From Prevotella sp. (GTDB lineage Bacteria > Bacteroidota > Bacteroidia > Bacteroidales > Bacteroidaceae): a stretch of 64,000 bases of DNA. The notes under the pieces were generated by a model. The model did not search any database, was not told the origin of the DNA, and saw nothing but the letters and a program-made list of their open reading frames with translations. The stretch's first letter is position 1. Each line of letters begins with the position of its first letter. The stretch spans positions 56,511-120,510 of the forward strand of contig JAFZAP010000062.1 in NCBI GenBank assembly GCA_017557185.1, given 5' to 3'. Position numbers and translations under genes: made by a program. Of this stretch, positions 5,579-63,204 are shown one piece after another.

Positions 5579-6526
5579 ATGGCAAAGATTGCAAAACAGT
5601 TGACCGAGCTCATCGGTAACACTCCACTTCTGGAGCTTGAGAAAATTTCTAAGGCAAAAGGTATCGAAACCCCCATTATCGCCAAGATTGAGTATTTCAA
5701 CCCGGGCGGCAGCGTGAAAGACCGCATCGCGTTGGCCATGATTGAGGATGCCGAAGAGAAAGGCATTCTGACGCCCGGTGCAACCATCATCGAACCCACC
5801 AGCGGAAATACAGGCGTAGGATTGGCACTGGTATCGGCCGTCAAGGGCTACCATCTTATCCTTACCATGCCTGAAACCATGAGCGTGGAGCGTCGAAACC
5901 TTGTGAAGGCCTATGGAGCCGAAGTGCGCCTCACCTCGGGAAAGGACGGAATGCCTGGTGCCATCCGTGCCGCCAACGAGTTGCGTGACTCTATTCCCGG
6001 CAGCGTGATCCTGCAACAGTTCGAAACCCCCGCCAATCCTTCCAAACACTATGCGACGACAGGTCCTGAGATCTGGCGTCAGACTGATGGCGAAGTCGAT
6101 ATCTTCATCGGTGGAGTAGGCACGGGCGGCACCATCTCGGGTGTGGGCAAGTATCTGAAGGAGCAGAACCCCGACATCAAGATTATCGCCGTGGAACCCA
6201 AGTCGAGTCCCGTACTGAACGGCGGACCGAGCGGGCCGCACAAGATTCAGGGCATCGGAGCCGGCTTCGTGCCGAAGACCTACGATTCGGAAGTCATCGA
6301 CGAAGTATTCGATGTAGAGAACGACGATGCCATCCGCACCAGTCGCGAGGTTGCCCAGCAGGAAGGAGTGTTGGTTGGAATCTCCGCCGGAGCAGCCCTC
6401 TATGCAGCGTTCGAGGTGGCAAAGCGTCCTGAGAACAAGGGCAAGAACATCGTGGCCCTGCTCCCCGACACGGGTGAGCGCTATCTCAGCACCGTGCTCT
6501 ATGCCTTTGAGGACTATCCATTGTAA
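5579..6526 (+). CDS. cysK: Cysteine synthase A (O-acetylserine sulfhydrylase)
   Basis: The 315-residue protein is a fold-type II PLP enzyme. The Schiff-base lysine is Lys47 in NPGGSVKDRI, the substrate loop TSGNTG is at 74-79 and the phosphate-binding loop GVGTGGTISG is present. It converts O-acetylserine and sulfide to cysteine and acetate. The frame is open back to 5441, but the promoter -7 element lies at 5530-5537, so the Met at 5579 (MAKIAKQLTE) is the start. It is a single-gene unit with its own promoter; metY lies on the other side of the helicase gene. Confidence 0.93.
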   Translation: MAKIAKQLTELIGNTPLLELEKISKAKGIETPIIAKIEYFNPGGSVKDRIALAMIEDAEEKGILTPGATIIEPTSGNTGVGLALVSAVKGYHLILTMPETMSVERRNLVKAYGAEVRLTSGKDGMPGAIRAANELRDSIPGSVILQQFETPANPSKHYATTGPEIWRQTDGEVDIFIGGVGTGGTISGVGKYLKEQNPDIKIIAVEPKSSPVLNGGPSGPHKIQGIGAGFVPKTYDSEVIDEVFDVENDDAIRTSREVAQQEGVLVGISAGAALYAAFEVAKRPENKGKNIVALLPDTGERYLSTVLYAFEDYPL

Positions 6527-6529
6527 TTG

Positions 6530-6590
6530 GTTCAATGCGCCTGCGGCGCGGTTCAAAGTTCAAAAGTTCAATGCTGCTACGCAGCATGTA
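6530..6590. repeat. GTTCAA-type dispersed intergenic repeat
   Basis: After cysK the sequence repeats GGTTCAA/AGTTCAA around two short palindromes (GCGCCTGCGGCGC and GCTGCTACGCAGC). Related blocks occur near 38413-38463, 42982-43034 and 62520-62610, always between genes. Confidence 0.6.
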
Positions 6591-6653
6591 AGACCGAAAA
6601 AAGGCATTTATATACTATTTGGCCTTGTAGGGAATTGACAGGCATCAAGCTCA

Positions 6654-6825: not shown

Positions 6826-8847
6826 GTGAAACTGCTCATCGCGCTCATCCTGTCGTTAGGCACCGTTGTCGCTCATGCCCAAGTGGCTGAGGTTGCCGAC
6901 ACCTCGAACGTCAAGACGCTCGAGGGGAAGAAGTTGTCGGAAGTCACCATCTCGGCTCAGAAGGCCGGACGCGTGAAGGCAAGTGGAGTGGGGAATGCTG
7001 ACCTCATTGGCACGAAGGAACTGCTTCGGGCCGCCTGTTGCAACCTCGGGGAAAGCTTCACCACCAATCCCTCCGTCGATGTGAACTACACCGACGCAGC
7101 CACAGGCGCACAACAGATCAGGCTGTTGGGGCTCTCGGGCACCTATGTGCAGATGCTCACCGAGAACATTCCCAACTACCGCGGACTGGCGGCGCCGTTT
7201 GCGCTGAGCTACATCCCAGGTCCGTGGATGCAGAGCATACAGGTTTCGAAGGGTGCCTCGTCGGTGAAGAACGGCTACGAGAGCATCACCGGCCAGATCA
7301 ACGTGGAGTTCAAGAAACCGCAGGCGACACCCTTCGCCGACGCGAACATTTATCTGAATACAAAAGGAAAGCTCGAGGCCAACCTCGGGGGAAACGTCCA
7401 TTTATCCGACAAATGGAGCACAGCCCTTCTCGGGCATTACGAAATCCTCGACAAGGCTCACGACGCGAATGGCGACGGGTTCGCCGATATGCCGAAGGTG
7501 CGGCAGGGATCGCTCCAGAGCCGATGGGCGTGGATGGGCGACAACTACATCTTCCAGGCCTCCGTCAAAGGATTGAAGGAGCATCGCGAGAGTGGACAGA
7601 TAGGGCACCATGCGGCAGGTAACGCCCATCCCTACCTTATTGACATCACCAACGAGCGCTACGAGGCCTTTGCCAAGAATGCCTATATCATCAACGACGA
7701 GCATTCCACAAACATCGCACTCATACTCTCCGGATCGCAACACCACGAGAACGCTTCCTATGGGCATAAGCTCTATCGTGCCGACCAGCGCAACGGCTAT
7801 GCCTCGCTGATGTTCGAAAGCGACCTCGGCGAGCATCACAGCATCTCGACGGGCGTGAGCCTGAACCACGACCATCTGAGCGAAAGCGTCGTCGCGAAAA
7901 GCGAAGAACAGACCACCGCCGAGGAGACGACACCCGGCATCTATGCCCAATACACCTACAAGCTGGGCGAACAGCTCACGCTGATGGGCGGTCTGCGTTG
8001 GGACCACAGCAACATCTACGGCAGCTTCCTGACGCCGAGGATGCACTTCAAATACGCCCCCAACGACATCATCACCCTGCGAGGCTCCGTCGGCAAGGGC
8101 TATCGCACAAGTCATGTGCTGGCCGAAAACAACTACCTGCTGGCCAGCGGACGAGAGATCATCATCGACAGCAACCTCGATCAGGAAGAAGCCTGGAACG
8201 CAGGAGTGAGCACCGTCGTCAGCATCCCCATAGGCAGCAAGAAGCTCGAGCTCAGTGCCGAATACTACTACACCAGTTTCCAGCATCAGACGGTGATCGA
8301 CCTCGACAGCAATCCGCATGCCGTGCTGTTCGGCAATCTCGACGGCAAGAGCTATTCGCACACCTACCAGCTCGAGGCCACCTATCCCTTCTTCGAGGGA
8401 TTCACGCTCACCGCCACCTATCGGCGAACCGACGTGAAATGCACCTACGGCGGCGTGCTGCGCGAAAAGCCGCTCACCAACCGCTACAAAAGCCTGTTCA
8501 CAGCCTCCTATGCGCCCGGGCTCGGCAAGTGGCAGTTCGATGCCACCCTGCAACTCAACGGCGGCGGGCGGCTGCCCGACAACCTTCAGCAGTCCACATA
8601 TCCCGCCTTCGAGCAGTTGAGCGCTCAGATCACCCGTTTCTTCCGCAACTGGAGCATCTATGCCGGCGGTGAGAACATCACGGGTTTCAAGCAGAAGAAT
8701 CCCATCATCGGTGCCGACGACCCCTGGAGCAGCAATTTCGACTCCACCATGATTTGGGGACCCCTCCACGGGCCTGTCTATTACGTTGGCGTCCGCCTGA
8801 ACTGGAACAAGATAAGCAGTCAAAAGATTAAAGATTCAAGAATATGA
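6826..8847 (+). CDS. TonB-dependent outer-membrane receptor, probably for a metal or metal chelate
   Basis: The 673-residue protein starts at a GTG with a signal peptide (KLLIALILSLGTVVAHA|Q), then a plug domain (about 35-160) and a TonB-dependent beta-barrel that ends with the typical aromatic C-terminal strand region. The plug begins with a Cys-Cys pair (RAACCNLGESF). It has no carboxypeptidase-like N-terminal domain and no SusD partner, so it is unlikely to be a glycan receptor. The next gene overlaps its stop by four bases and encodes an HMA metal-binding protein, which suggests import of a heavy metal such as copper. The substrate is an inference from that pairing. Confidence 0.85.
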   Translation: MKLLIALILSLGTVVAHAQVAEVADTSNVKTLEGKKLSEVTISAQKAGRVKASGVGNADLIGTKELLRAACCNLGESFTTNPSVDVNYTDAATGAQQIRLLGLSGTYVQMLTENIPNYRGLAAPFALSYIPGPWMQSIQVSKGASSVKNGYESITGQINVEFKKPQATPFADANIYLNTKGKLEANLGGNVHLSDKWSTALLGHYEILDKAHDANGDGFADMPKVRQGSLQSRWAWMGDNYIFQASVKGLKEHRESGQIGHHAAGNAHPYLIDITNERYEAFAKNAYIINDEHSTNIALILSGSQHHENASYGHKLYRADQRNGYASLMFESDLGEHHSISTGVSLNHDHLSESVVAKSEEQTTAEETTPGIYAQYTYKLGEQLTLMGGLRWDHSNIYGSFLTPRMHFKYAPNDIITLRGSVGKGYRTSHVLAENNYLLASGREIIIDSNLDQEEAWNAGVSTVVSIPIGSKKLELSAEYYYTSFQHQTVIDLDSNPHAVLFGNLDGKSYSHTYQLEATYPFFEGFTLTATYRRTDVKCTYGGVLREKPLTNRYKSLFTASYAPGLGKWQFDATLQLNGGGRLPDNLQQSTYPAFEQLSAQITRFFRNWSIYAGGENITGFKQKNPIIGADDPWSSNFDSTMIWGPLHGPVYYVGVRLNWNKISSQKIKDSRI

Positions 8848-44807: not shown

Positions 44808-44881
44808 GGTGCGTTAGTTCAGTAGGTTAGAATGCCTGCCTGTCACGCAGGAGGTCACGAGTTCGAGTCTCGTACGCACCG
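44808..44881 (+). tRNA. tRNA-Asp (GUC), copy 1
   Basis: A full cloverleaf of 74 bases: acceptor GGTGCGT with ACGCACC, anticodon stem CCTGC/GCAGG around loop CTGTCAC, and GTTCGAGTC in the T arm. The anticodon is GTC at 44842-44844. CCA is not encoded. Confidence 0.96.
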
Positions 44882-44922
44882 CTTTGAAAGCGGAAAGAAT
44901 TCATAAAATTGCATCACTTTAA

Positions 44923-44996
44923 GGTGCGTTAGTTCAGTAGGTTAGAATGCCTGCCTGTCACGCAGGAGGTCACGAGTTCGAGTCTCGTACGCACCG
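44923..44996 (+). tRNA. tRNA-Asp (GUC), copy 2
   Basis: Identical to copy 1 over all 74 bases, 115 bases downstream, with anticodon GTC at 44957-44959. The two are likely to be processed from one precursor ended by the terminator at 45003. Confidence 0.96.
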
Positions 44997-45002
44997 CAGA
45001 AG

Positions 45003-50868: not shown

Positions 50869-51085
50869 ATAAATCGCGATTTTTTTTTATGCTGAACCGA
50901 TGGAGCAGCGAGACAGAGCGGAATTAATTCCAGCTATGTCGAGTCGTGACTGAGGTCGACCGAAGGTCAAGTGTATCTTATCTTCGGCGGAGCCAAAGAA
51001 GAGGAAAAATAATGAATATTTGACTATTGTGCATGAATTCTTCTTTTTTATCACCTTTTTTCTTCTGTAATTCATGTTTTTTCGC

Positions 51086-51093
51086 TACCTTTG
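51086..51093 (+). promoter_or_regulatory. Upstream candidate promoter of the accessory operon
   Basis: TACCTTTG matches the -7 consensus; the -33 region (TTTTTTCTTCTG) is only approximate. It would add about 90 bases to the leader started at 51178. Confidence 0.45.
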
Positions 51094-51177
51094 CTAGCAG
51101 GATATGGGAATGACCCATTTTTCCTGCAAATACAAAAAAATACAGCTCACAAATGAACGTTTTTCAAAAACTTTTCG

Positions 51178-51185
51178 TATCTTTG
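51178..51185 (+). promoter_or_regulatory. -7 element of the accessory operon leader
   Basis: TATCTTTG matches the consensus but no clear TTTG is found 19-21 bases upstream. Transcription would start near 51191, about 310 bases before the first coding sequence. Confidence 0.55.
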
Positions 51186-51190
51186 TGCCG

Positions 51191-51498
51191 TGATTGGTCT
51201 TCATGACCTCTCACAGACATGATTTAGGAAGCGTTTAGCTTTTCCAGCTGGTAAACTTCGACAACTTACCTTTGAAAGATTGGAAAGCGAGGACGTTCTT
51301 CCCGTGCTATGATTGTACAGGTACAGCTTGTACCCTACATCATACATGGGTGTGAGCTGTTTCTCTCTAATCTATCTTTCAGGCAGTCGAAGGCCTACCA
51401 GCAGATTAGCTAGCGGGCTCACACCTTCTTTGTCGTGCCTAGAACCTAATAATTTAATAGATTGCTTTATTGAGCCGTAAAGTTAAGGAGATTTAAGT
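51191..51498 (+). ncRNA. Long structured leader RNA of the 51-60 kb operon
   Basis: Several strong stems can be drawn: GCTTTTCCA 51238-51246 with TTGGAAAGC 51280-51288 enclosing GGTAA/TTACC; ATGATTGTA 51309-51317 with TACATCAT 51336-51343 enclosing GGTACA/TGTACC; and GGTGTGAGC 51349-51357 with GCTCACACC 51417-51425 enclosing CTAATCT/AGATTAG and AGGC/GCCT. No U-tract follows the last stem. The motif GAAAGCGAGG-ACGTTCTTCCCG at 51283-51304 matches 19 of 22 positions with the tail of the RNA at 27.9 kb. It may be a cis-regulatory leader or a separate RNA processed from it; no known riboswitch class is recognised. Confidence 0.55.
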
Positions 51499-51690
51499 AT
51501 GTTTACAATTTCAGATGAGGCAAAGAAAGCTTTTCTAGAGAGTCTGAATGATGAAGATCGGCAAAATCTGGAGTTGGTTAATCGTGTGTTGAACCAATTG
51601 GTAGGTGCTATGATGAACAGATCTGGAGAAGATCCCATTTCTATTGATACTGTAAGAAACATTGCCGCACTCATGACTGAAATCATTTAA
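51499..51690 (+). CDS. Small acidic hypothetical protein
   Basis: The 63-residue protein (MFTISDEAKKAFLESLNDED...) is predicted to be all-helical and has no signal peptide or membrane helix. It is the first gene after the structured leader and is preceded by a rare purine-rich AAGGAG motif about ten bases upstream of its ATG. No family is recognised. Position at the head of the operon would suit a regulator or chaperone, which is only a guess. Confidence 0.6.
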   Translation: MFTISDEAKKAFLESLNDEDRQNLELVNRVLNQLVGAMMNRSGEDPISIDTVRNIAALMTEII

Positions 51691-51744
51691 CTAAGGAGTA
51701 AGCAGGAAAACTTAATATTGAAAGAAAACTTTAACCATACAAAT

Positions 51745-52248
51745 ATGAATAAAGTAGGGAATAAAAAAGTTAGCTTTTGTAGGGTTCTATATGACATGCT
51801 AAAGCTTATAGGAGGGCGTTTTTGGATTTTAGTATTAGGATTGTTCCTTGTACTGTTATTTCTTACACTTCGTTATCAAATAGATTTTTGTTCGGAATGT
51901 TTTATAAAAACTATTATAGAGATAATACCAGAGTTACTGGGATTTCTTATAGCCGGGCTTGCAATTGTTATGGGATTTAATGATGGTACACTAAAAAGGT
52001 TATCAATAACGGCTGACGACGGGATGATTCCAATTAGGGTTGTAGTTGCAAGTTTTTCTGTCTGTTTTATTATCTTATTATTAACATTGGTATTGTCTGT
52101 TTTCTATGTTAACATAGATTTCTGTTGTCTAGGTTGTCGCAGATTGCTAGGTTTTTTAGTTATTTGGCTGGCAATTACATCTGCATTATCTTTGTTTCAT
52201 GTTATATTTCATCTTTTTGCAATAAGTACACATTTAATAATTAAGTAG
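51745..52248 (+). CDS. Four-helix membrane protein of the accessory operon
   Basis: The 167-residue protein has four membrane segments (FWILVLGLFLVLLFLTL, IIPELLGFLIAGLAIVMGF, VVVASFSVCFIILLLTLVL and LGFLVIWLAITSALSLFHVI) with short loops that hold three or four cysteines. A TTG nine codons upstream is in frame, but the ATG at 51745 is preferred. No family is recognised. Codon use is AT-rich like the rest of the operon. Confidence 0.65.
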   Translation: MNKVGNKKVSFCRVLYDMLKLIGGRFWILVLGLFLVLLFLTLRYQIDFCSECFIKTIIEIIPELLGFLIAGLAIVMGFNDGTLKRLSITADDGMIPIRVVVASFSVCFIILLLTLVLSVFYVNIDFCCLGCRRLLGFLVIWLAITSALSLFHVIFHLFAISTHLIIK

Positions 52249-52275
52249 ATAAACAGAAGAAATAAAGTGATAGAA

Positions 52276-52749
52276 ATGGAAGAATATAACGACTTGAAAG
52301 TAGCTGTCATAAAGTGTCCATACTGTGGTGAAGTACTTCCACCATTATCTAAAGTATGTCCTAGTTGTAATCAAATAGTAGATAGTCAGAATGAAGCTGA
52401 TAATGTTAATAACATGATGACTGAAATAGACACGATATGTTCCAAATATTTGAACACAAATATACGTGTTTACGACTATCTTTTACTATTAATCCCTATT
52501 GTATATATCGTATGGTTTTTTGTTGTCATTATGAAAATAATGAGGTCTAAAGCATTATACAATGATTTTTGCTCTTTAAGTTCCAAAGCTCAAACTTTGT
52601 ATGGAGACAATTATAGTTTTCGCTCATATCTTGGACAAAAACGTACCGATATGCAAGAACTAATGAGAAAAAGTAAGAAGTCACATATTATAGTATATAT
52701 AATAATGAGTGTGAATATTCTTTTACTAGTTATAAGTTTAGCAAGTTAA
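52276..52749 (+). CDS. Zinc-ribbon membrane protein
   Basis: The 157-residue protein begins with a zinc ribbon (CPYCGEVLPPLSKVCPSC; Cys14, Cys17, Cys28, Cys31), followed by two membrane helices (about 70-90: LLLLIPIVYIVWFFVVIM; and about 138-157: IIVYIIMSVNILLLVISLA) with a soluble loop between them. A GTG nine bases upstream is also possible. Zinc-ribbon membrane proteins are encoded next to SPFH proteins in the Bacillus ydjFGHI locus, and the SPFH gene here begins nine bases later, so the two products probably form one complex. Confidence 0.75.
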   Translation: MEEYNDLKVAVIKCPYCGEVLPPLSKVCPSCNQIVDSQNEADNVNNMMTEIDTICSKYLNTNIRVYDYLLLLIPIVYIVWFFVVIMKIMRSKALYNDFCSLSSKAQTLYGDNYSFRSYLGQKRTDMQELMRKSKKSHIIVYIIMSVNILLLVISLAS

Positions 52750-52758
52750 ATTGGAGTT

Positions 52759-54111
52759 ATGAGTATATTCGGAAGAGGTAAAGGCGGTGGATTCATGAAT
52801 GTTATTCGCTGCGATGAGGAAAACTATTTAGTGTGGAAGTGGCGTCCTGAAGGTCAGGAGGTTAATTCAACTTCTCGTGAAAATGCCATCAGATATGGCA
52901 GTACTCTTCGTGTTAAGGATGGTGAAGTTGCTGTATTTACCTATATGCAGCAGAATGCCACGTTACAAGATTTTATAGAAGGGCCTTACGACCAAACGAT
53001 TAAAACGGGTAATTTCCCTGTTTTGGCCAATCTTGTCGGAATGGCATGGGGAGGGGAATCGCCATTCCAAGCCGAAGTGTATTTCATTAATTTGGCAGGG
53101 AACAACCAAATACGATTTGGTGTGCCGTATTTTGATGTTTTTGATCCTCGTTTGCCAGATCATGGTATTCCTGTCTGTGTACGAGGGATGATTACTTTTA
53201 ACATCACAGATTATCGTGGTTTTATCAAGCTAAATCGCTTGATAGAATTTGATTTAGATAGATTTCTGGAACAAATTAGAGCCGCATTGGTTAAATATGT
53301 AAAAAGTGTTGTGGCTAATATCCCACGTACAATGAATATCCCATTGGTACAGATGGAGACACAGATATTGGAAATCAACCAAAAAGTACAAGGCTTTTTG
53401 GCATCAAGGCTTAAAGAGGATTTTGGTGTCAACCTGAAGGCTGTAGATATATCTGCTATTGAGATAGACAAAAAAAGCCCCCATTATGCTGAGGTACGTC
53501 AGCTGACGGCAGGTAACACGGCAAGAACGATGAATGCTCAGACAGATGTAAATATACAGAATCTAAAAGATATGCAGGCTATAAATACAGAGAATGTTGC
53601 AGAATCATTGCGAATCCAACGTGAAGAAGGGCAACGTGCTCAACGCCTCCAATCCGAAACTAATTTCATCGGTGCCCATTCAATAGACAGGCAAGCAGAA
53701 GTGCTAAAAGTAGCAGCAGAAAATCTTGGTCAAATGGGTACGATGAATTTGGGAAATGGCGATGGTGGAGGATTGAATCCTGCTGGAATGATGACAGGTA
53801 TGATGATGGGAGGAGCTATGGGTCAACAGATGGCTGGTATGATGTCACAGATGGGACAGACAGTACAAGGAGGTATGAATACACCACCACCTATGCCAAC
53901 TGTTCAATATTTTACGGCCGTTAATGGCCAGCAGGCTGGTCCCTTTACTCTGCAACAATTACAATTATTGGTAGGGAGTGGTCAATTAACAAGACAAACA
54001 TATGTTTGGAAGCAGGGGATGGCTAATTGGGAATATGCAGAGAATGTCCCTGAGGTTGCCTCATTATTCTGTGCCAATACTCCACCGCCACCTCCGCCTC
54101 CTGTACCCTAA
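52759..54111 (+). CDS. SPFH-domain protein with C-terminal GYF_2 domain and poly-proline tail
   Basis: The 450-residue protein has an SPFH/band-7 domain (about 45-245, similar to the virion-core/YdjI group: IRFGVPYFDVFDPRLPDHG), a helical coiled-coil stretch (about 250-330) and a Met/Gly-rich linker (about 343-375). A PPP motif at 376-378, a GYF_2 (DUF4339) domain at about 383-437 (YFTAVNGQQAGPFTLQQL) and seven consecutive prolines at 442-448 follow. There is no membrane helix, so it would be a cytoplasmic oligomer docked on membrane partners. GYF domains bind proline-rich peptides, so its own tail or linker is a possible ligand. Confidence 0.85.
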   Translation: MSIFGRGKGGGFMNVIRCDEENYLVWKWRPEGQEVNSTSRENAIRYGSTLRVKDGEVAVFTYMQQNATLQDFIEGPYDQTIKTGNFPVLANLVGMAWGGESPFQAEVYFINLAGNNQIRFGVPYFDVFDPRLPDHGIPVCVRGMITFNITDYRGFIKLNRLIEFDLDRFLEQIRAALVKYVKSVVANIPRTMNIPLVQMETQILEINQKVQGFLASRLKEDFGVNLKAVDISAIEIDKKSPHYAEVRQLTAGNTARTMNAQTDVNIQNLKDMQAINTENVAESLRIQREEGQRAQRLQSETNFIGAHSIDRQAEVLKVAAENLGQMGTMNLGNGDGGGLNPAGMMTGMMMGGAMGQQMAGMMSQMGQTVQGGMNTPPPMPTVQYFTAVNGQQAGPFTLQQLQLLVGSGQLTRQTYVWKQGMANWEYAENVPEVASLFCANTPPPPPPPVP

Positions 54112-54133
54112 TATAAATATAATAATGTAGCTT

Positions 54134-54481
54134 ATGGACAATAATGATTTCTTTTCTTTAGACAGATTGTTGGAGTTTGGTATTGGAATGGGAATGGCTC
54201 AGCAGATGATTAATATGATGAACCAGTCTATGAAATCTATGTATATACCAGGTTCTATCCAATCCATGCCACAACCTATTGCACATTTCTATTATGTTGC
54301 CATTGATGGTCTGCAAACAGGTCCTCTTAGAGAAACTGAACTAATGGAACTTATTAGAGGCAAAAAAGTCTCGAAGGATACATTAGCGTGGATGCCAGGA
54401 ATGGCAACATGGTTACCTGTAGAACAAGTTCCTGCTATTCTTAAACTTATTGCTTTAACTCCACCACCATTGAATGTATGA
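54134..54481 (+). CDS. Stand-alone GYF_2 (DUF4339) protein
   Basis: The 115-residue protein has a Met-rich N-terminal stretch (GIGMGMAQQMINMMNQSM), a proline-containing linker and one GYF_2 domain (about 50-105: FYYVAIDGLQTGPLRETELM), ending TPPPLNV. In order and spacing it looks like the last quarter of the SPFH protein encoded just upstream, without the SPFH part, so a duplication is likely. It overlaps the next gene by four bases. Confidence 0.78.
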   Translation: MDNNDFFSLDRLLEFGIGMGMAQQMINMMNQSMKSMYIPGSIQSMPQPIAHFYYVAIDGLQTGPLRETELMELIRGKKVSKDTLAWMPGMATWLPVEQVPAILKLIALTPPPLNV

Positions 54482-54825
54482 AAATTAATAATGTTTTATC
54501 TTTGATAATACTCGTTTTTTCTTCGTTGTTAGGATACTGGGTATATTCTGTTGCGGATGCAGATTCTCATGCAACATTGGCAGGAATACTGTCTACAATC
54601 TGTTTTGCTATCCCGTTGATTATGGGCATTGGAGTAAGTTATAACACATCTGTTGCAATTGTTAACATTAGGACTTTATCATGTGTATTGTTCCTTTTGA
54701 TGCTTATAATGCATTTCTATTATGCCAATACAGGTATAACAATGCCATATTATTTATTATTTACAGGTATTCTTCTTTGCATATATGCAGCGATAATATA
54801 CACAATTATCAAATCTAAACAATAG
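54478..54825 (+). CDS. Small four-helix membrane protein
   Basis: The 115-residue protein is almost entirely hydrophobic, with four helices (about 5-24, 32-52, 61-80, 86-108) and very short loops. No family is recognised. The ATGA overlap with the GYF_2 gene and a four-base gap to the DUF6175-like gene put it in the same operon. It may be a membrane anchor for the SPFH/GYF proteins, as inference. Confidence 0.65.
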   Translation: MKINNVLSLIILVFSSLLGYWVYSVADADSHATLAGILSTICFAIPLIMGIGVSYNTSVAIVNIRTLSCVLFLLMLIMHFYYANTGITMPYYLLFTGILLCIYAAIIYTIIKSKQ

Positions 54826-54828
54826 AAT

Positions 54829-55782
54829 ATGAAGAAAAACTATATTATTTTTATCCTGACTATTTTTGTCTGCTTTTTCCCGTTGTCTTTGGAGGCCCAA
54901 AAGAAGCCTACAATCATGATTCTCCCAAGTGACAATTGGTGTGAAATGCGTTATTTCATGACTACCTATGATAATCAGGGAACAAAAGTCAAGACCCCAG
55001 ATTATCAGTTAGCTTTCCAGCAGGATACGGAGATTGGGCCCGTTATCAGTAAAATCGGAGGTTTACTCACCTCTCTTGACTACAGCATTAAGGATGCTGA
55101 GCAGGAGATAAGGAGAATCAATTTGAAAACTGCTGAGGACAATATGACCTTCAGTAAAACAAGTGCTGCAAACTTGGTTGAAAGTCCTTTGGATTTATTG
55201 AAGAGAAGAATCAAGTCGGATATATTGATACAGATTTCCTGGCACCTGAATAAAGAAGAATTGGGGCGTTCTGTAACATTTAATCTTGAAGCTTTTGATA
55301 CTTATACAAGTAAGCGGATTGCATCTTCAACGGGAACAACAATGGCATCCCAAGACCCTATTCCTGTTATATTGGAGCAGGCTGTTAAGGAGCGAATAGC
55401 TGAGTTTGATTCTCAGATGACAAAGTGGTATGTTGAACAACAGACTGATGGTAGGGAGATAGTCCTTACTATACGATGCTGGGATAATTGGGAGAACGAT
55501 TTGGAGACGGAATATGATGGTGAAGAACTAACCGATTGTATTCAAGACTGGCTAAAACAGCATACCGTCTCTGGTAACTATAATCTTACTGATGGGACAG
55601 AGACATTTGCGCAGTTCGAGCAAGTGCGAATACCATTATTTGATGAAAGAGGCAATGCTCTCGATGCTCGTGGCTTCGCAACAGAATTGCGTAAGTATCT
55701 GAACAAACCTCCTTATAATATTACATCCAAAGTGATGCAGCGTGGTTTAGGTGAGGCAATAATTGTATTAGGAGAAAAGTAA
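54829..55782 (+). CDS. Exported DUF6175-like protein
   Basis: The 317-residue protein has a signal peptide cleaved after Ala23 (FVCFFPLSLEA|Q) and resembles DUF6175 proteins of Bacteroidetes: PTIMILPSDNWCEMRYFMTT near the N-terminus and a C-terminal RKYLNKPPYNITSKVMQRGL. The mature protein looks like two alpha/beta domains of the kind seen in TolB-N/CsgG-like envelope proteins. It would act in the periplasm or at the outer membrane. Its stop overlaps the next start by one base. Confidence 0.75.
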   Translation: MKKNYIIFILTIFVCFFPLSLEAQKKPTIMILPSDNWCEMRYFMTTYDNQGTKVKTPDYQLAFQQDTEIGPVISKIGGLLTSLDYSIKDAEQEIRRINLKTAEDNMTFSKTSAANLVESPLDLLKRRIKSDILIQISWHLNKEELGRSVTFNLEAFDTYTSKRIASSTGTTMASQDPIPVILEQAVKERIAEFDSQMTKWYVEQQTDGREIVLTIRCWDNWENDLETEYDGEELTDCIQDWLKQHTVSGNYNLTDGTETFAQFEQVRIPLFDERGNALDARGFATELRKYLNKPPYNITSKVMQRGLGEAIIVLGEK

Positions 55783-56870
55783 TGATGAAGAAAGGAGTTA
55801 TTCTTATATTATTATTTATTGTATTTGCTGGTTCAATATATGCTCAGACGGATCAGTTATATATTAGCGTAGTACAACCAGATAGGGATGTAATTCCATC
55901 TGAGGCAGGAAAGCAATTGGAGCGAAAGATGACCCAATTACTGACAGCTAATGGCATATCTTCTTTAGATGCCAACAATCGCTTTGTAATAACTGCCAAG
56001 GCCGATGTTACGTCCAAAGATATTGTTGCGTCAACACCACAAAGGATTTCAGAGAAGATAGACCTTACACTCATAATTGGTGATATGGTAGAGAATAAGG
56101 TATTTGAAACGATTACCTTACCTCTTATAGGAATTGGCATCAATGAAAACAAGGCCTTTATTGCCGCTATTAATCAGATTAAGCCACAGGATAAAGACTT
56201 GGTGGCATTCCTTGATAGAGCAAAAGAAAAAATCGTGAATTACTATTCTGTCAGATGTTTACAAATCATCAAACAGGCTCAACAACTTGCTAGTAACAAT
56301 GAATATGATGAGGCTATCTATCAGTTGATGCAAGTGCCAGATATTTGCGATTGCTCAAAAGAGTGTCAGGATTTGATGATTGAATATGCTATCAGAAAGA
56401 ATAATGCGGAGGCGGCTCAATTATTAAATGAAGCAAAAGCGCGCTGGGCTGCTTCGCCTACGTCTGAGGGCGCCTCTCAAGTAGCAGATATAATAGCAAA
56501 AATGCCTGCGAACACAGACAGCCAATCAAAAGTGGAATCACTTATTGCTGCTATCAATAGAAAACTTCGTCAGGATGAGAAGCGCCAGTGGGATTTTAAG
56601 ATGAAAAAGTATAATGATGCAAAAGAGCGGGAAAGGAGAGAGTTTCAGCTAAGAGTTGATCAGCAAACGGCTGATAATGAACTGCGGGCCAAGCAGGTTG
56701 AGGCCAATGTCCAGATCAGGAAAGAAGAGTTGGAAGCAAAGAAACGCCAACAAGCTGAAGTGCAAACAACTCGCAGAAAGATGATAGAAGCAGCTAAGAG
56801 TGTGGGACTGGGGTTTGCAAATAACCTACCCAAAACAATAACATATATTAAAAATGTAATGTCATGGTAA
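55782..56870 (+). CDS. Exported protein with a C-terminal coiled coil
   Basis: The 362-residue protein has a signal peptide cleaved after Ala21 (LLFIVFAGSIYA|Q). An alpha/beta domain with TolB/CsgG-like flavour follows (about 22-150), then a TPR-like helical region (about 155-230, including CDCSKEC) and a long charged coiled coil (about 255-345). No family is recognised with confidence. It overlaps both neighbours (one and seven bases), so the four exported proteins appear to be made together. Confidence 0.7.
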   Translation: MMKKGVILILLFIVFAGSIYAQTDQLYISVVQPDRDVIPSEAGKQLERKMTQLLTANGISSLDANNRFVITAKADVTSKDIVASTPQRISEKIDLTLIIGDMVENKVFETITLPLIGIGINENKAFIAAINQIKPQDKDLVAFLDRAKEKIVNYYSVRCLQIIKQAQQLASNNEYDEAIYQLMQVPDICDCSKECQDLMIEYAIRKNNAEAAQLLNEAKARWAASPTSEGASQVADIIAKMPANTDSQSKVESLIAAINRKLRQDEKRQWDFKMKKYNDAKERERREFQLRVDQQTADNELRAKQVEANVQIRKEELEAKKRQQAEVQTTRRKMIEAAKSVGLGFANNLPKTITYIKNVMSW

Positions 56871-57352
56871 GATTATTAAAAAAGGTATTATTATTGGGTA
56901 TTTTTACTTTAGGAGTAAATTATGCCAATGCTCAGGGGTATGATCAAGAGCGAATACAATTGGCCAATTTCATTGAGCGGATGTATAACAATGCTCCTTT
57001 TGATGGTTGCCGTATTATTGATGACTATGATAATAGCTACTTGCTGTCTGTTGTTGCTTTGGATAAGTCAAAATACAAAACAGCTCAGATAATGAATCGT
57101 GTGGCAGATGTTAAGTCTCAGCGCAATGCAGGGGAGTTCTTCAATGGTTCACATAGTTACACATCTATGACTATTAAAACTCCAAAAGGTGAAGAACACG
57201 AATCTGATATGACAGAGGTCTATGAACTCATTCGAGTAAATTCTATTGGTTATGTAAAGCAAATGCAGTTGTTAACGTCATTTGAAGATGCTAATAAAAT
57301 GCAGGTCTTTGTTTATTACAAGAGAGTGGAAAAGAACACTATAAAACAGTAA
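56864..57352 (+). CDS. Small exported hypothetical protein
   Basis: The 162-residue protein has a signal peptide ending NYANA|Q and a mature part of about 140 residues with mixed helices and strands. Stretches such as FIERMYNNAPFDGCRIIDDY and SFEDANKMQVFVYYKRVE have no recognised family. It is the third of four consecutive exported proteins and starts inside the end of the preceding gene. Confidence 0.65.
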   Translation: MVRLLKKVLLLGIFTLGVNYANAQGYDQERIQLANFIERMYNNAPFDGCRIIDDYDNSYLLSVVALDKSKYKTAQIMNRVADVKSQRNAGEFFNGSHSYTSMTIKTPKGEEHESDMTEVYELIRVNSIGYVKQMQLLTSFEDANKMQVFVYYKRVEKNTIKQ

Positions 57353-57356
57353 TCGT

Positions 57357-58907
57357 ATGAAGAAGTATTTATTAATCTTAATTGCTGGCTTACTGTTCTC
57401 AGTGAATATGCCAGCACAAAACATTTTAAATACTATTGGCAGAGCTCTTAATGGGTTAAGCCAACAAGGTCAACAAAGAAATAACCAACGTTATAACAAC
57501 CAAAGAACTTACCCATACAATCGAAGGCCTAACAGACAATATGGAATAGGCCAGCAAAGAAGAGAAATTCAACAGCGTAATATTTATCAACAGCAAGATA
57601 ATACTGTTGAAAGAAATGAATCCCCAAATAGTGTGAATAATACTGTTGAAAGAGATAAATCATATAATAATGAAACCCCATCGGATATAAACAATCAAAC
57701 TCCGAATAACGATAAAACAATATCCCTTGTTACTAGTGGAACTGGAAACACAAGGGAAGAAGCGATTCGCAATGCCTTAAGAAATGCTATAGAACAAGCA
57801 TTCGGAACATTTGTATCTGCCAATACAGAAGTACTAAATGACGATTTGATAAAGGATGAGATTGTTACAGTGTCATCAGGCAATATTAAATCATATAGAG
57901 AACTTTCGGTATCTCAGTTGTCAAGTGGTCTATATGATGTGACCGTTCAGGCCGTTGTTTCTATTGATCAGCTAACTAAATTTGCACAAAGCAAGGGAAT
58001 GCAAGCAGAATTGGCAGGTGCTTCATTTATGATGAATATGAAAATGCGCGAGCTTAATAAGAAAAACGAAGATGCGGCAATAAATCACATGATAGAAAAA
58101 ACAAAAGCAATTGCGAGAAATGGTTTATTTGATTATAAGTTAGAGATAGGCGAACCTCAGTTGACTTCAAATTCAAATTATGCCGTCAAAATAACGATTC
58201 TATTTTGCGAGAATGAGAATACAAAAGCTTTCTATAGCACAATATATGATACATTTAAAGCCTTAAGTATGAATAAAACAGAGATAGCAGAGTACGAAAG
58301 GACAAAGATACCCTATTTTTTTTATGATGATCAATTGAGAACGACAAAGAAACATATCGGTGGTATAGGTGAAGTATATTATGATGGTGTATATGCTCTA
58401 AGGAATTCCTACGAAATGTTAGATCTAAGGGAGTCCTCTTATTCAGCGGTCAAAGCGCACACACATACATGGATAATGCCATTGCTAATGATATATGCGC
58501 TCAACTATGAAATAAAGGATAACCTTGGAAATATATGGAGTTGTGATATTAAAAAGAATAAAAAAGATTCGAATAATCGATTAATATGGTGCTATAAAAC
58601 AGAATCTATAAATAATGATATAAATCAATATTATTATATATTGTCACCTTCTGATAGAATAGTAGAAGTTTGGGATGGTATTCATATGAGATCATGTGGA
58701 TATGATTTAGAAGTTCCTATTCATGATTATAGAGGTAAGACGCTGCATTTTAATCCTCTGTTAGAAGATCGAACAATACATGGTAGTAAAAATAGTTGTC
58801 TTGAACGAAAAAATAGCGGTATTTACTATAGTCAAGAGTTTAATATTTTATATACTCCTGATGAATTATCTAAACTCAACTCTATAACAATAAATCATCG
58901 TCAGTAA
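57357..58907 (+). CDS. Exported protein with Gln/Asn-rich segment and FlgT/LPP20-like domain
   Basis: The 516-residue protein has a signal peptide (LLILIAGLLFSVNMPA|Q), a Gln/Asn/Arg-rich disordered region (about 30-120) and then a domain like the FlgT N-terminal/LPP20 family (about 122-215: TGNTREEAIRNALRNAIEQA). A C-terminal part of about 290 residues has no recognised fold. Proteins with this domain support outer-membrane or flagellar assemblies in other bacteria, but no flagellar genes are present here. It closes the set of exported proteins. Confidence 0.7.
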   Translation: MKKYLLILIAGLLFSVNMPAQNILNTIGRALNGLSQQGQQRNNQRYNNQRTYPYNRRPNRQYGIGQQRREIQQRNIYQQQDNTVERNESPNSVNNTVERDKSYNNETPSDINNQTPNNDKTISLVTSGTGNTREEAIRNALRNAIEQAFGTFVSANTEVLNDDLIKDEIVTVSSGNIKSYRELSVSQLSSGLYDVTVQAVVSIDQLTKFAQSKGMQAELAGASFMMNMKMRELNKKNEDAAINHMIEKTKAIARNGLFDYKLEIGEPQLTSNSNYAVKITILFCENENTKAFYSTIYDTFKALSMNKTEIAEYERTKIPYFFYDDQLRTTKKHIGGIGEVYYDGVYALRNSYEMLDLRESSYSAVKAHTHTWIMPLLMIYALNYEIKDNLGNIWSCDIKKNKKDSNNRLIWCYKTESINNDINQYYYILSPSDRIVEVWDGIHMRSCGYDLEVPIHDYRGKTLHFNPLLEDRTIHGSKNSCLERKNSGIYYSQEFNILYTPDELSKLNSITINHRQ

Positions 58908-58927
58908 TTATATATCATTTATTTATT

Positions 58928-59566
58928 ATGCAACATTATTATAAGTACAAAAGCCTAAGTGATAATAGTTTTAAGTATTTTGTGAAAACGCTAATCGAAA
59001 GCAAAATGCATGCTTCCACTTTCAAAGAATTGAATGACCCAATGGAAGGCGCATTTCTAACAAATGTAGATAATCAAACAATTGATGCTATTCGTAAAGG
59101 AAAGGAAGGTCTAAGAATTATTTCTATGATAGAAAAAAAGGAAGATAAGCCTTGTAACATGCTTATGTGGAGCCACTATACTGATGAACATCGTGGCTGT
59201 TGCATTGAGTTTCATTTTTCAGATGAAAAAGAACTAGAGAAAGTGCATAAGGTAGAATATGTGAAGAAGATAGAGATTAGTAATATTATTTTTGAAGAGG
59301 AAGTTTTATCTCGAAAGTTTATAGATTGGAAGTATGAACAAGAGGTGAGGCATCTTGGTCAAGAAGAGTCCGTTCCTATTGTGATAGATAAGATATATTT
59401 GGGAATGCGAATTGATAATATGTATAATGAAAACGATAACACTTACGAATCTTTTTATACAGACCTGATTAAGCGCATATGCCCAAATGTAGAGGTTGTA
59501 AAAATGCAAGCAGAGGATTTCGATGAGCACCATTTAGATACGCTAAAGAAATGCAATATAGTATAG
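58928..59566 (+). CDS. DUF2971 domain protein
   Basis: The 212-residue cytoplasmic protein carries the DUF2971 signatures YYKYKSLSDNSFKYF, STFKELNDPMEGAF and MLMWSHYTDEHRGCCIEFHF. The biochemical function of the family is unknown; members are often encoded in accessory and defence-like regions. Here it follows the exported block after 20 bases and is as AT-rich as that block. The conserved His/Asp/Cys pattern suggests an enzyme, but this is inference. Confidence 0.8.
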   Translation: MQHYYKYKSLSDNSFKYFVKTLIESKMHASTFKELNDPMEGAFLTNVDNQTIDAIRKGKEGLRIISMIEKKEDKPCNMLMWSHYTDEHRGCCIEFHFSDEKELEKVHKVEYVKKIEISNIIFEEEVLSRKFIDWKYEQEVRHLGQEESVPIVIDKIYLGMRIDNMYNENDNTYESFYTDLIKRICPNVEVVKMQAEDFDEHHLDTLKKCNIV

Positions 59567-59568
59567 GT

Positions 59569-59781
59569 ATGAAGGCGAAGACACCAATAACAGAAACCAA
59601 TCTTCTCGAATATGGTTTTGAGAAGCGCAAGTATGGTAGTATCGTCTTTTTTGTAAAGGATGAATTTGCGATTGTGCAAAATATCAAATGGCTACCTTGC
59701 AATATTTATACAGGAGTACCACTGAGTACAGGTCTATATGTTGATACAATGGAAGAATTGGAACAACTACTGATAAAATAA
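59569..59781 (+). CDS. Small hypothetical protein
   Basis: The 70-residue protein (MKAKTPITETNLLEYGFEKR...) has alternating strands and a C-terminal helix (TMEELEQLLIK). It starts two bases after the DUF2971 stop; a start six codons earlier would overlap that gene. The pattern GFEKRKYGSIVFFVKDEFAI is common in small phage or immunity-like proteins, but no family is recognised. Confidence 0.6.
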   Translation: MKAKTPITETNLLEYGFEKRKYGSIVFFVKDEFAIVQNIKWLPCNIYTGVPLSTGLYVDTMEELEQLLIK

Positions 59782-59820
59782 ATGAACTAAAAACTTTTAA
59801 TTAATTATAATACTTATATT

Positions 59821-60381
59821 ATGGCAAATCAAGTAGTAAACATCACGCATGACAGATTTGAGAATTCAACAAATAGTGAATCAATTCATCTGAGGTATGA
59901 CCTTAAACAAGGGTTTCTGCAATACGTTTACCTTCAATTATGGTTGCACTCCACAAAGGAAGGAGGGCGCGACAGTCTGTCAATTGTCGCTTTTGTGGAA
60001 TCTGAAGATTGGATATTCCTTAGGAATGGCTCTTTATCACTAAGATTAGACGATCGAGAGAATATAAACATCGCAGCAGAATTAGTAGATTCAAGAGTGT
60101 TAGATGGTCATTGTGTAACGGAAGGAGTTGTTTATTCTATAAACAGAAACACTCTAAAAAAGATATGTGATGCATCTGTCTTGGAAGCTAAAATCACTGG
60201 TAGTCGAGGTAATTGGGAACTAAATCTACAAGATTTCTTGTCTGTTGCAAGAATCTTTTACAATCAGGTTTATGATAACAGCAAGTATACCAATGAACAA
60301 TTTACAGTTAAGAGAGGATGCTTGGGCGTAATAATTGCAAGTATTATTATGACATCAACTATTGGCTTTCTTTTATTGTAA
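59821..60381 (+). CDS. Tail-anchored hypothetical protein
   Basis: The 186-residue protein is soluble and beta-rich for about 160 residues (IHLRYDLKQGFLQYVYLQLW, WIFLRNGSLSLRLDD) and ends in one membrane helix (GVIIASIIMTSTIGFLLL). This is a tail-anchored topology with the domain in the cytoplasm. No family is recognised. It is the last AT-rich gene; base composition returns to the genome average in the next gene. Confidence 0.62.
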   Translation: MANQVVNITHDRFENSTNSESIHLRYDLKQGFLQYVYLQLWLHSTKEGGRDSLSIVAFVESEDWIFLRNGSLSLRLDDRENINIAAELVDSRVLDGHCVTEGVVYSINRNTLKKICDASVLEAKITGSRGNWELNLQDFLSVARIFYNQVYDNSKYTNEQFTVKRGCLGVIIASIIMTSTIGFLLL

Positions 60382-60439
60382 AGAGGGGATTGCTTTCCCT
60401 CTATAAAGAGCAGTAACTAATTTGCATTGGGGGATTCTT

Positions 60440-61273
60440 ATGGCTTTTAAGTTCAACCTCGTTTACTCTCCCGATGGTCACACGTTGTTGAGGGTTCCGC
60501 TGGATGCAGAGACCTTCCGCATTCGCGAGGGAGTCTGGGGCATTGATGAATATGCTTTCGACGGTTGCTCGCGATTGCGGGAGGTGGACGTGCCTTATAC
60601 CGTGACGTTCTTTGAGAATGGAAGACTGGCGGAGGATGCTTGTATGCGGCATGCTCCTGAGGGCCTGAAGTTGAATTTTTGGGATTGGCCTTACCCAAAG
60701 AATTGTGTCATAAGCGATGAGTTGAAGGAGGAAATCGCTAATGGCAGGATTGATGAGTATGGGTTTGTTTATAGCCAAGATGGAAAGCGTTTACTCAAGG
60801 CAGCCAAAAGAGTTAGTGAGTACTGGATACCTGAGAGTGTGGAGCGGATTGAGCGACTAGCCTTCTTGGGCTGTACATTCGATACGTTGCATGTACCAAT
60901 GAGTTGCTCGTGGGAATTTAGGCCAGAGGAGGAATGGCCCATCTTCGGCAGTGAACGGGTGATGGGATGCATCGTGTTTTGGGAACGTCCCTATGCAGAG
61001 CAAGACATGGATACGGATGCACTACATGTGGCAGATGACGATAGGATGATTGACAATGAAGACGTGGCCTATACAAAGAACGGCAAGCGGCTATTGTACG
61101 CAAGGGTCGGTTTTAAAGCGACTAAGTACAATGTGCCAGAGGGAGTAGTTACAATCTGTGACTTGGCTTTTGCAGGGTGTGAACAGTTTGTCTCGCTGTA
61201 TGTGCCCTCATCGGTAATAATAATAGGCGATAATCTTTTTGGGGAGAAGGGTGGTAGGATCATACGATTATAA
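60440..61273 (+). CDS. BspA-like (LRR_5) leucine-rich repeat protein
   Basis: The 277-residue protein consists of three similar modules. Each starts with a strand pair (VYSPDGHTLLRVP, VYSQDGKRLLKAA, AYTKNGKRLLYAR) and continues with an LRR_5 unit containing a P-x-x-V...AFxGC motif. There is no signal peptide, unlike most BspA-like adhesins, so it may be cytoplasmic. A TTG 18 bases upstream is in frame, but the ATG at 60440 is preferred. GC content is higher than in the preceding operon, so it may not belong to it. Confidence 0.75.
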   Translation: MAFKFNLVYSPDGHTLLRVPLDAETFRIREGVWGIDEYAFDGCSRLREVDVPYTVTFFENGRLAEDACMRHAPEGLKLNFWDWPYPKNCVISDELKEEIANGRIDEYGFVYSQDGKRLLKAAKRVSEYWIPESVERIERLAFLGCTFDTLHVPMSCSWEFRPEEEWPIFGSERVMGCIVFWERPYAEQDMDTDALHVADDDRMIDNEDVAYTKNGKRLLYARVGFKATKYNVPEGVVTICDLAFAGCEQFVSLYVPSSVIIIGDNLFGEKGGRIIRL

Positions 61274-62773: not shown

Positions 62774-62781
62774 TACCTTTG
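62774..62781 (+). promoter_or_regulatory. -7 element of the beta-flower gene
   Basis: TACCTTTG ends six bases before the ATG at 62788, so the transcript would have almost no leader. Confidence 0.6.
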
Positions 62782-62787
62782 CGGCAT

Positions 62788-63204
62788 ATGAAACGGAGTG
62801 TTTTAAGTTTGGTGCTGTTCTGTATCATGATGCTTACGGCTCAGGCACAGGAGTTGAAGGACGCGTCGTATCGGTTTATGGGACGCGTAGAAACGAATGG
62901 GGTGGTGAAGGATGCGAACTATCGGATGATTGGAAAGATAGAAAGTGATGGCACCATCAAAAATGCAAATTATATGATGGTGGGGAAGATCATGTCGGAT
63001 GGCACCATCAAGAACAGCAACTATATGATGATTGGGAAGGTTGAGAAGGATGGTACGGTGAAAAACCAGAACTATATGTTTATTGGGAAGGTGAAGTCTG
63101 ACGGCACAATAGTCGATCAGTCGTACAAGATGATTGGTCATGCGAAAGGTGTCCCAGCATCGTATGCGGCCGTATTGTACTTTTTTAACCTGCTTAGAAT
63201 GTGA
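62788..63204 (+). CDS. Exported 5-fold beta-flower-type repeat protein
   Basis: The 138-residue protein has a signal peptide (KRSVLSLVLFCIMMLTAQA|Q) and then six 17-residue repeats of the pattern KxxNYxMIGKxxSDGTI; the last one is partial. The repeat resembles proteins annotated as 5-fold beta-flower in Bacteroidales, in which each unit is a beta-hairpin petal. A short hydrophobic C-terminus follows (YAAVLYFFNLL). Function is unknown; a surface or periplasmic binding role is possible. A start nine bases upstream would fall in the promoter. Confidence 0.75.
   Translation: MKRSVLSLVLFCIMMLTAQAQELKDASYRFMGRVETNGVVKDANYRMIGKIESDGTIKNANYMMVGKIMSDGTIKNSNYMMIGKVEKDGTVKNQNYMFIGKVKSDGTIVDQSYKMIGHAKGVPASYAAVLYFFNLLRM

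Follow-up and report, generated by a model that had tools for sequence, protein, structure and literature searches.

The described system closest to the locus analysed here is the pspA-ydjGHI (YdjFGHI) operon of Bacillus subtilis, in which, according to the accessible part of PMC8581546, YdjG and YdjH recruit the SPFH protein YdjI to the membrane. Our locus lies in a stretch of 64,000 nucleotides (nt) from Prevotella sp. (GenBank assembly GCA_017557185.1, contig JAFZAP010000062.1, positions 56,511 to 120,510, forward strand), hereafter the window, and comprises 13 genes (g1 to g13) headed by a structured leader RNA. Among the products are a zinc-ribbon membrane protein (g3), an SPFH protein with a GYF domain (g4) and a set of putative exported proteins that includes a DUF6175 protein (g7). 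The original prediction, made from the DNA letters alone, had described the genes as a possible new envelope machine and had drawn the parallel to YdjFGHI. The parallel holds for the zinc-ribbon membrane protein beside a Band_7_1-type SPFH protein in one operon; no match to PspA (YdjF) or to the TPM domain (YdjH) was found in 14 window genes, GYF domains replace the C-terminal zinc ribbon, and an exported module and a structured RNA at the head are additional here. One SPFH relative (L073:894-2213) carries zinc-ribbon-like CxxC pairs at its C-terminus where the others have GYF, as read off the alignment.

The leader RNA is comparable to the orphan riboswitch and attenuator leaders described in the available parts of PMC11109978 and PMC8632094, with which it shares a covarying fold and a terminator-like last helix near the start codon, and from which it differs in having no Rfam family, no metabolic gene theme and several copies per genome. 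We favour, with moderate confidence, the reading that a new class of structured leader RNA controls this accessory operon as a cis-acting attenuator or riboswitch-like gate, and that the operon encodes a YdjGHI-like envelope scaffold. In Rfam 15 no family matches the RNA at the gathering score or at E up to 0.1-1, the same loci giving only tRNAs and matches over tRNAs. The RNA is also not described in the main texts, so far as these are accessible, of PMC8040213, PMC2864571, PMC8632094, PMC11109978, PMC7366714 and PMC7159879, although it may be listed without a name among the 3161 candidates in the supplements of PMC8040213. Surveys of 26 (PMC8632094) and 50 genomes (PMC11109978) do not mention Bacteroides or Prevotella in the accessible main text by the terms searched, and the motifs Bacteroides-2 and GUCCY-hairpin of PMC2864571, from the same phylum, have no Rfam accession in the accessible table of that paper and fall outside the leader-RNA comparison. 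The literature searched gave no print account of the leader RNA, nor of SPFH proteins combined with TerB, a zinc ribbon or GYF. Judged by Rfam and the searchable papers, the RNA is a new class within a known kind, the structured leader RNAs.

Two models of the RNA were used, R1 built from 15 copies and the covariance model R2 from 53 copies (53 of 69 loci, weak or duplicate copies being left out); their E-values are rough, and the genome counts include the window's own genome. The region ahead of g1 (51135-51463) is 72% identical in L087, a locus from a Prevotella metagenome-assembled genome (MAG) from sheep, a value near that of the genes. The element was found by blastn in 15 of 151 family genomes (E up to 0.01, the window's own counted, some matches short), and at the 14 sites examined the downstream genes vary by locus. 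R1 matches 82 of the 151 family genomes (E up to 0.001), and R2 matches 90 of 295 genomes of the order, in 62 of 184 genera, with up to eight matches in one genome (eight candidates were scored per genome); in a phylum-wide sample the count was 13 of 345. Should the favoured reading be correct, about a third of the sampled order genomes carry an Rfam-unlisted RNA regulator of roughly 135-250 nt, often in multiple copies. Paired copies within about 1.5 kb were seen at L144:7414-7560 and 8301-8447, each ahead of its own open reading frame (ORF), and at L248:5016-5201 and 6440-6624.

Comparison of the copies indicates that the leader is a structured RNA with covarying secondary structure. Paired cells and covariation were computed on 53 distinct sequences in an alignment made with R1. 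In helix P_A1, 95.9% of cells are paired and six of seven pairs show changes on both sides; the corresponding values are 99.7% and seven of seven for P_A2, 93.3% and five of nine for P_B, and 72.5% and seven of seven for P_B2. Covariation reaches 0.606; shuffles give 0.224, and sliding the partners gives no more than 0.16. Since R1 contains P_A1 and P_A2 and not P_B or P_B2, the former pair of helices was fitted and the latter was not. In a de novo mutual-information scan the top 11 column pairs all belong to P_A1 and P_A2, followed by columns 10-26 and then, after one more P_A2 pair, by 230-243; we interpret the last two as small hairpins with the two P_A2 strands as their loops, a kissing-loop contact. 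P_A3 is poorly aligned and was therefore tested without an alignment, giving a complementarity of 18.6 within and 10.3 between sequences (standard deviation (sd) 0.36; maximum 11.7 in 5000 permutations).

The helices were first spotted by eye on the same sequences as those tested, and 42 copies outside the R1 and R2 sets, which include close relatives such as L134 and L152, serve as the test on others. In these, P_B scores 20.6 versus 16.5 (sd 0.49) and P_A 19.6 versus 13.3 (sd 0.40), the copies having been found by a model that contains P_A; in 22 compact copies (<165 nt) P_B scores 20.5 versus 16.8 (sd 0.69). The 5' strand of P_B lies inside the P_A helices (P_A1, P_A2 and P_A3); with P_A and P_B crossing in this way, the RNA forms a pseudoknot. 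Folded singly, the window copy (51185-51498) and that of L087 have z values of -3.7 and -6.8. G-U pairs are many; examples are two helix-end pairs that are GU in 26 and 29 of the sequences, and one pair inside P_B2 that is UG in 20. A large covarying fold is the kind found in riboswitches. Weak model matches on the opposite strand, facing a strong copy, occur at L196:7626-7805, L105:8324-8494 and L323:10105-10312; the RNA is in this respect partly self-complement-like.

Table 1. Features of the leader RNA and of the operon, in window coordinates (aa, amino acids)
Feature	Position	Strand	Description
TATCTTTG	51178..51185	+	Bacteroidota-type -7 promoter box (TAnnTTTG) of leader RNA
Leader RNA, pseudoknotted	about 51192..51434	+	transcription start inferred from -7 box; R1/R2 match 51244-51430
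GGAAGCGUUUAGCUUUUCC	51227..51245	+	strongly conserved (alignments A3, A4); hairpin possible, by eye
P_A1 5' strand	51247..51253	+	partner 51396-51402
P_A2 5' strand	51256..51262	+	partner 51386-51392
P_A3 5' strand	51273..51280	+	partner 51374-51381
P_B 5' strand	51349..51357	+	partner 51417-51425; crosses P_A
P_B2 5' strand	51367..51373	+	partner 51403-51409; weakest helix
P_B 3' strand and U-tract	51417..51432	+	terminator-like end
g1	51499..51690	+	63 aa, first ORF, 68 nt past RNA core; no family above cut-off
g2	51718..52248	+	176 aa membrane protein; top match PHROG 20580 (5e-7), a family of unknown function
g3	52267..52749	+	zinc-ribbon membrane protein; a shorter form of the TerB-like/zinc-ribbon partner, in a cluster with L087 only
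g4	52759..54111	+	SPFH (Band_7_1, PF13421), GYF_2 and proline-rich tail
g5	54134..54481	+	stand-alone GYF_2 protein
g6	54478..54825	+	small membrane protein, part of core
g7	54829..55782	+	DUF6175, putative exported
g8	55782..56870	+	coiled-coil partner of DUF6175, putative exported
g9	56864..57352	+	small putative exported protein, DUF6175 module
g10	57357..58907	+	LPP20-like (weak match), putative exported
g11	58928..59566	+	DUF2971 (PADLOC PDC-S31), variable cargo
g12	59551..59781	+	small protein; 71% identity to L087 counterpart
g13	59821..60381	+	hydrophobic C-terminus; variable cargo
g14	60422..61273	+	LRR_5 (BspA-like) protein, 40 nt after g13; possible last gene

The fold is framed by signals at both ends. 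In 50 of 53 copies a TAnnTTTG box is found 40-110 nt ahead of the RNA; control windows have it in 11 of 212 cases and shuffles in 53 of 1040. The 8 nt past P_B hold a mean of 5.6 T where 2.4 are expected (53 copies), so that the stem P_B with a U-tract directly after it has the form of an intrinsic terminator or attenuator. A sense ORF of at least 60 codons with an ATG start begins 10-150 nt past the RNA in 72 of 89 copies, at a median distance of 51.5 nt in those 72 (interquartile range 45-63), while the mirror control gives 11 of 85. For this count 18 added matches were hand-picked and L073, L098, L118, L126, L138 and L150 were left out; the antisense overlap match L196:7626-7805:- was omitted both here and from the listing of downstream genes. 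At 32 nt, the median 5' untranslated region given for B. thetaiotaomicron in the accessible part of PMC7366714 is far shorter than this leader.

The genes behind the RNA encode zinc-ribbon proteins, BspA-like leucine-rich repeat (LRR) proteins, lipoproteins, a SusC/SusD-like pair, tubulin-like proteins and others, some named by eye. They are represented by 57 proteins, namely g1 and 56 of 65 first ORFs; the nine left out belong to L091, L095 and L100 (where the SPFH gene comes first), L239 and L265 (near-duplicates), L116, L268 and L248 (two). By a home-made criterion, lipoprotein-like starts are slightly enriched (10/60 versus 103/1545, p 0.0075, one of two tests). At L188:442-5146 and L200:7312-11737 the RNA stands ahead of operons with a GLGGTGGK protein of 1016-1031 aa, tubulin-like by eye, and a zinc-ribbon-like protein; at L189:1717-6252 it precedes an operon with an 889-aa FtsK-like and a 92-aa WXG100-like protein (by eye), and at L324:2294-7508 a SusC/SusD-like gene pair (by eye) starts 55 nt after it. 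A pseudoknotted RNA directly ahead of a gene is also a feature of the type III toxin-antitoxin RNA ToxI (PMC5772629, accessible part). No ToxN-type endoribonuclease match was found in the window's 14 genes, nor in 25 of the 38 families listed for the 57 RNA-led proteins. ToxI is a short repeat, whereas the leader RNA here is one large fold.

Both parts of the operon are found behind the same RNA elsewhere. A search of 90 SPFH loci with R2 gave 30 with a match, 26 of them upstream on the SPFH strand and four elsewhere; ten of the 26 upstream copies had gone into R2, and the other 16 were found by R2 or R1. Some of these RNAs lie several kb upstream with intervening genes, as in L075 (5.5 kb). 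For DUF6175 loci from other genomes the RNA is upstream in three of 29, at 79, 188 and 269 nt before the ORF; these three are among the five relatives closest to g7, and none of the 24 more distant ones has it. In G185 one RNA precedes the DUF6175 operon and another stands upstream of the SPFH operon, on separate contigs. Since other genomes have the RNA in front of just one half or the other, expression of both halves probably responds to a common signal, and separate SPFH-GYF and DUF6175 operons with this leader should, if the favoured reading is right, be co-induced. At the level of sequence comparison, the fold of the leader, its promoter box, U-tract and position, and its recurrence with both modules are established.

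The SPFH-GYF protein is the centre of the first module. Strong matches to its long type occur in four other genomes among the 295 of the order, and in four others of 101 genomes in the family set, with a contig-end fragment in a fifth. A scan of named genomes yielded at least 512 SPFH relatives, of which the best 80, ranging from Prevotella to Flavobacteriales with one Kapaibacterium, were taken as loci; since these are the closest, the neighbourhood counts lean to close relatives. In all, 91 loci were examined, and 87 of them hold an SPFH gene of the main cluster (the anchored loci). Within eight genes of SPFH, a zinc-ribbon protein of about 265 aa is present in 81 of the 87 (immediately before it in 62), a stand-alone GYF protein in 72 (immediately after it in 56) and a g6-type membrane protein in 69. 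Some zinc-ribbon partners contain a TerB/DUF533-like stretch, with weak Pfam support. The zinc ribbon/SPFH/GYF/membrane core is thus a conserved neighbourhood across Bacteroidota, and it is a variant of the already known YdjGHI-like type. In the SPFH alignment, the GYF stretch matches the Myxococcus gliding protein GltJ/AglX (PDB 7z3c, 8e-8), and g5 has a partial match to the NCBIfam GltJ model (3e-8) that stays far under the cut-off of the family. The similarity is confined to the GYF domain, and no gliding machinery is among the families found. Two genes are frequent neighbours of the leader RNA or of the SPFH core, one for a Ser/Thr protein kinase (PF00069 in L087) and the other for a linked protein of about 190 aa that has no Pfam family (L087:7119-8932, L196:5503-7314, L199:5000-7015, L232:5412-6799, L080:13704-15033); tblastn at 65 RNA-side loci gave kinase matches in 14 and matches to the linked protein in seven, some weak.

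The second module is built on DUF6175, relatives of which occur in 66 of the 295 order genomes, the window's own counted. A g8 homologue adjoins DUF6175 in all 29 loci fetched from other genomes (best matches), and g9 and g10 homologues come next in the five closest DUF6175 relatives. DUF6175, g8, g9 and g10 are therefore a self-standing module of putative exported proteins. Compared by sequence with solved structures, DUF6175 gave nothing credible (best E 0.1), and no paper on it was found in the literature searched.

The two modules are joined in four of the 87 anchored loci (the window, L087, G384 and L120), in two orders. L087 keeps the window's order from g3 to g9 at 76% nucleotide identity; it is one locus, it differs at the places of g1, g2, g11 and g13, and its g10 counterpart matches over the first half only. 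In G384 and in L120 (a Rikenellaceae MAG) the order is DUF6175, g8, zinc ribbon, SPFH, GYF, membrane protein, and the G384 DUF6175 protein is only 31% identical to g7. The two orders and the divergent DUF6175 proteins suggest, from sequence comparison, two separate joining events. The idea that all 13 genes form a single conserved machine was rejected, recurrence being seen for two sub-modules only. The neighbourhood comparison proposed with that prediction has thus been made, and it did not show cytoplasmic and exported parts lacking any common neighbourhood, since the halves are joined in these four loci and the same leader RNA can stand on each half.

It might be argued that the SPFH core and the DUF6175 module are unrelated and became neighbours in an accessory region only by chance. 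The rarity of the joined state in the anchored loci fits such an account, as does the scan of the order: SPFH matches, mostly distant (22-37% identity), occur in 66 of the 295 genomes, the same number as for DUF6175, yet no contig with both DUF6175 and a listed SPFH match was found, the window's own excepted. Against chance stand the two joined orders with their divergent DUF6175 proteins and the leader RNA that can precede each module, and we consider an unrelated pair unlikely, though it is the most serious of the alternatives. For the RNA itself, an RNA that suppresses polarity or acts by processive antitermination, comparable to put, EAR or the LoaP hairpin, recruiting a NusG-type factor and sensing no ligand, would suit an element found at the 5' end of unrelated accessory operons; put and EAR are smaller than this leader RNA, however, and we regard this explanation as improbable. 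LoaP works by a small leader hairpin and a terminator according to the accessible part of PMC12691694, a precedent for such control, but a small hairpin is unlike the large fold of the leader.

Still more doubtful is an independent small RNA, transcribed from its own promoter to its own terminator and acting in trans, to which the downstream genes would be mere neighbours. The promoter box and U-tract do frame a complete transcript and several copies occur in a genome, but the spacing to a sense start codon is steady, subject to the same-strand control given below, and the association with SPFH and DUF6175 operons is repeated. A mobile or recombination element acting as DNA (an attachment site or cassette end, with a single-strand fold in place of an RNA) would also be multi-copy and lie ahead of unrelated accessory genes. 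It is very improbable, given the -7 box at a steady distance, the many G-U pairs, the lack of a blastn match for the window copy in 72,556 plasmid and 50,697 phage records, and the viral contigs, in which one of two exact patterns matched once and the other not at all.

According to the favoured reading, an attenuator or riboswitch-like gate, P_B and the U-tract would act as an intrinsic terminator at which RNA polymerase stops by default, and an effector (a small molecule, a protein or an elongation factor) would act on the P_A/kissing-loop fold to let transcription proceed. The zinc-ribbon membrane protein would then bring the SPFH-GYF scaffold to the cytoplasmic membrane, on its inner face, by analogy with YdjG, YdjH and YdjI, the GYF domains may dock proline-rich partners, and the DUF6175, coiled-coil and LPP20-like exported proteins may be the periplasmic or outer-membrane counterpart. 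In a broader version, to which we give about even credence, this large, undescribed Bacteroidales class of pseudoknotted leaders acts as the shared switch of a regulon of mostly uncharacterised accessory operons, among them the two halves of a trans-envelope SPFH-GYF/DUF6175 machine, here joined under a single RNA. The signal of the regulator would in that case show what the hard-to-place downstream genes answer to.

Several observations weigh against these proposals. P_A and P_B compete for no shared bases, so that no antiterminator is apparent, and the stretch inside P_B, about 60 nt, is unlike the loop of an ordinary terminator, which leaves its terminator activity a prediction. Termination, switching, the effector and the direction of control are likewise predicted from the sequence, as are contacts among the operon's protein products. 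Further pair types in the alignment are not more numerous than in shuffles (109/500). Random positions on the same strand also reach an ATG-started ORF, in 802 of 1780 cases. No common theme unites the genes behind the RNA: Zn_ribbon_3 occurs in five and LRR_5 in four of the 57 proteins, the rest being scattered, and signal-peptide-like starts, by a home-made criterion, are not enriched (23/60 versus 526/1545, p 0.49). No RNA match was found in 60 of the 90 SPFH loci, some of which end at contig ends, or in 26 of the 29 DUF6175 loci, and the protein halves are usually apart.

The original prediction had further proposed transfer of the operon as a unit and a possible role in phage defence. Transfer was not demonstrated. 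Of 20 genomes of the genus searched, with that of the window among them, 19 have the rhodanese/lactamase neighbour, and in six genus regions no other window gene adjoins the rhodanese gene, so that no empty site could be defined or read there. Phage or plasmid carriage was rejected: the window RNA has no blastn match in the phage or plasmid records, SPFH matches occur in 12 plasmid records, all below 60% identity, and the viral contigs gave one SPFH relative (L167) and no DUF6175 or g8 match. The sole RNA copy found in the viral contigs, by the two patterns searched, is L330:2643-2841. Phage defence gained little support: among the ten of 13 operon proteins scanned, the only strong defence match is that of g11 (DUF2971) to the PADLOC candidate family PDC-S31 (3e-41).

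The predicted layout was borne out. The 13 ORFs run co-directionally on the + strand from 51499 to 60381 with gaps of -16 to +39 nt, and the composition is AT-rich, with 36.2% GC in 51178-60381 against 52.6% in the rest of the window (left 10 kb, 51.5%; right of the operon, 45.4%); the nine lowest-GC 1-kb windows of 64 are the nine in 51001-60000 (30-42% GC). The domain calls for g4, g5, g7 and g11 were all recovered in Pfam (g4, Band_7_1 PF13421 4.4e-22 and GYF_2 5e-19; g5, GYF_2 8.5e-14; g7, DUF6175 1e-101; g11, DUF2971 1.5e-6). The zinc ribbon of g3 falls under the Pfam cut-off (E 4e-4), with two CxxC pairs readable in its sequence, and the FlgT/LPP20-like call for g10 reduces to a weak LPP20 match (0.0019). 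The four-helix protein proposed for g1 was not recovered, Pfam giving sub-threshold matches only (E about 0.02). The predicted span did begin at 51178, the first base of the promoter box; it overlooked the leader RNA and g14. A related LRR protein comes after the g12 homologue in L087, so g14 may belong to the operon and the right boundary is uncertain. Two adjoining tRNA-Asp genes lie about 6 kb ahead of the operon (window 44808-44997), and a 5-fold beta-flower protein (PF21785, 7e-27) is encoded just beyond it (window 62779-63201).

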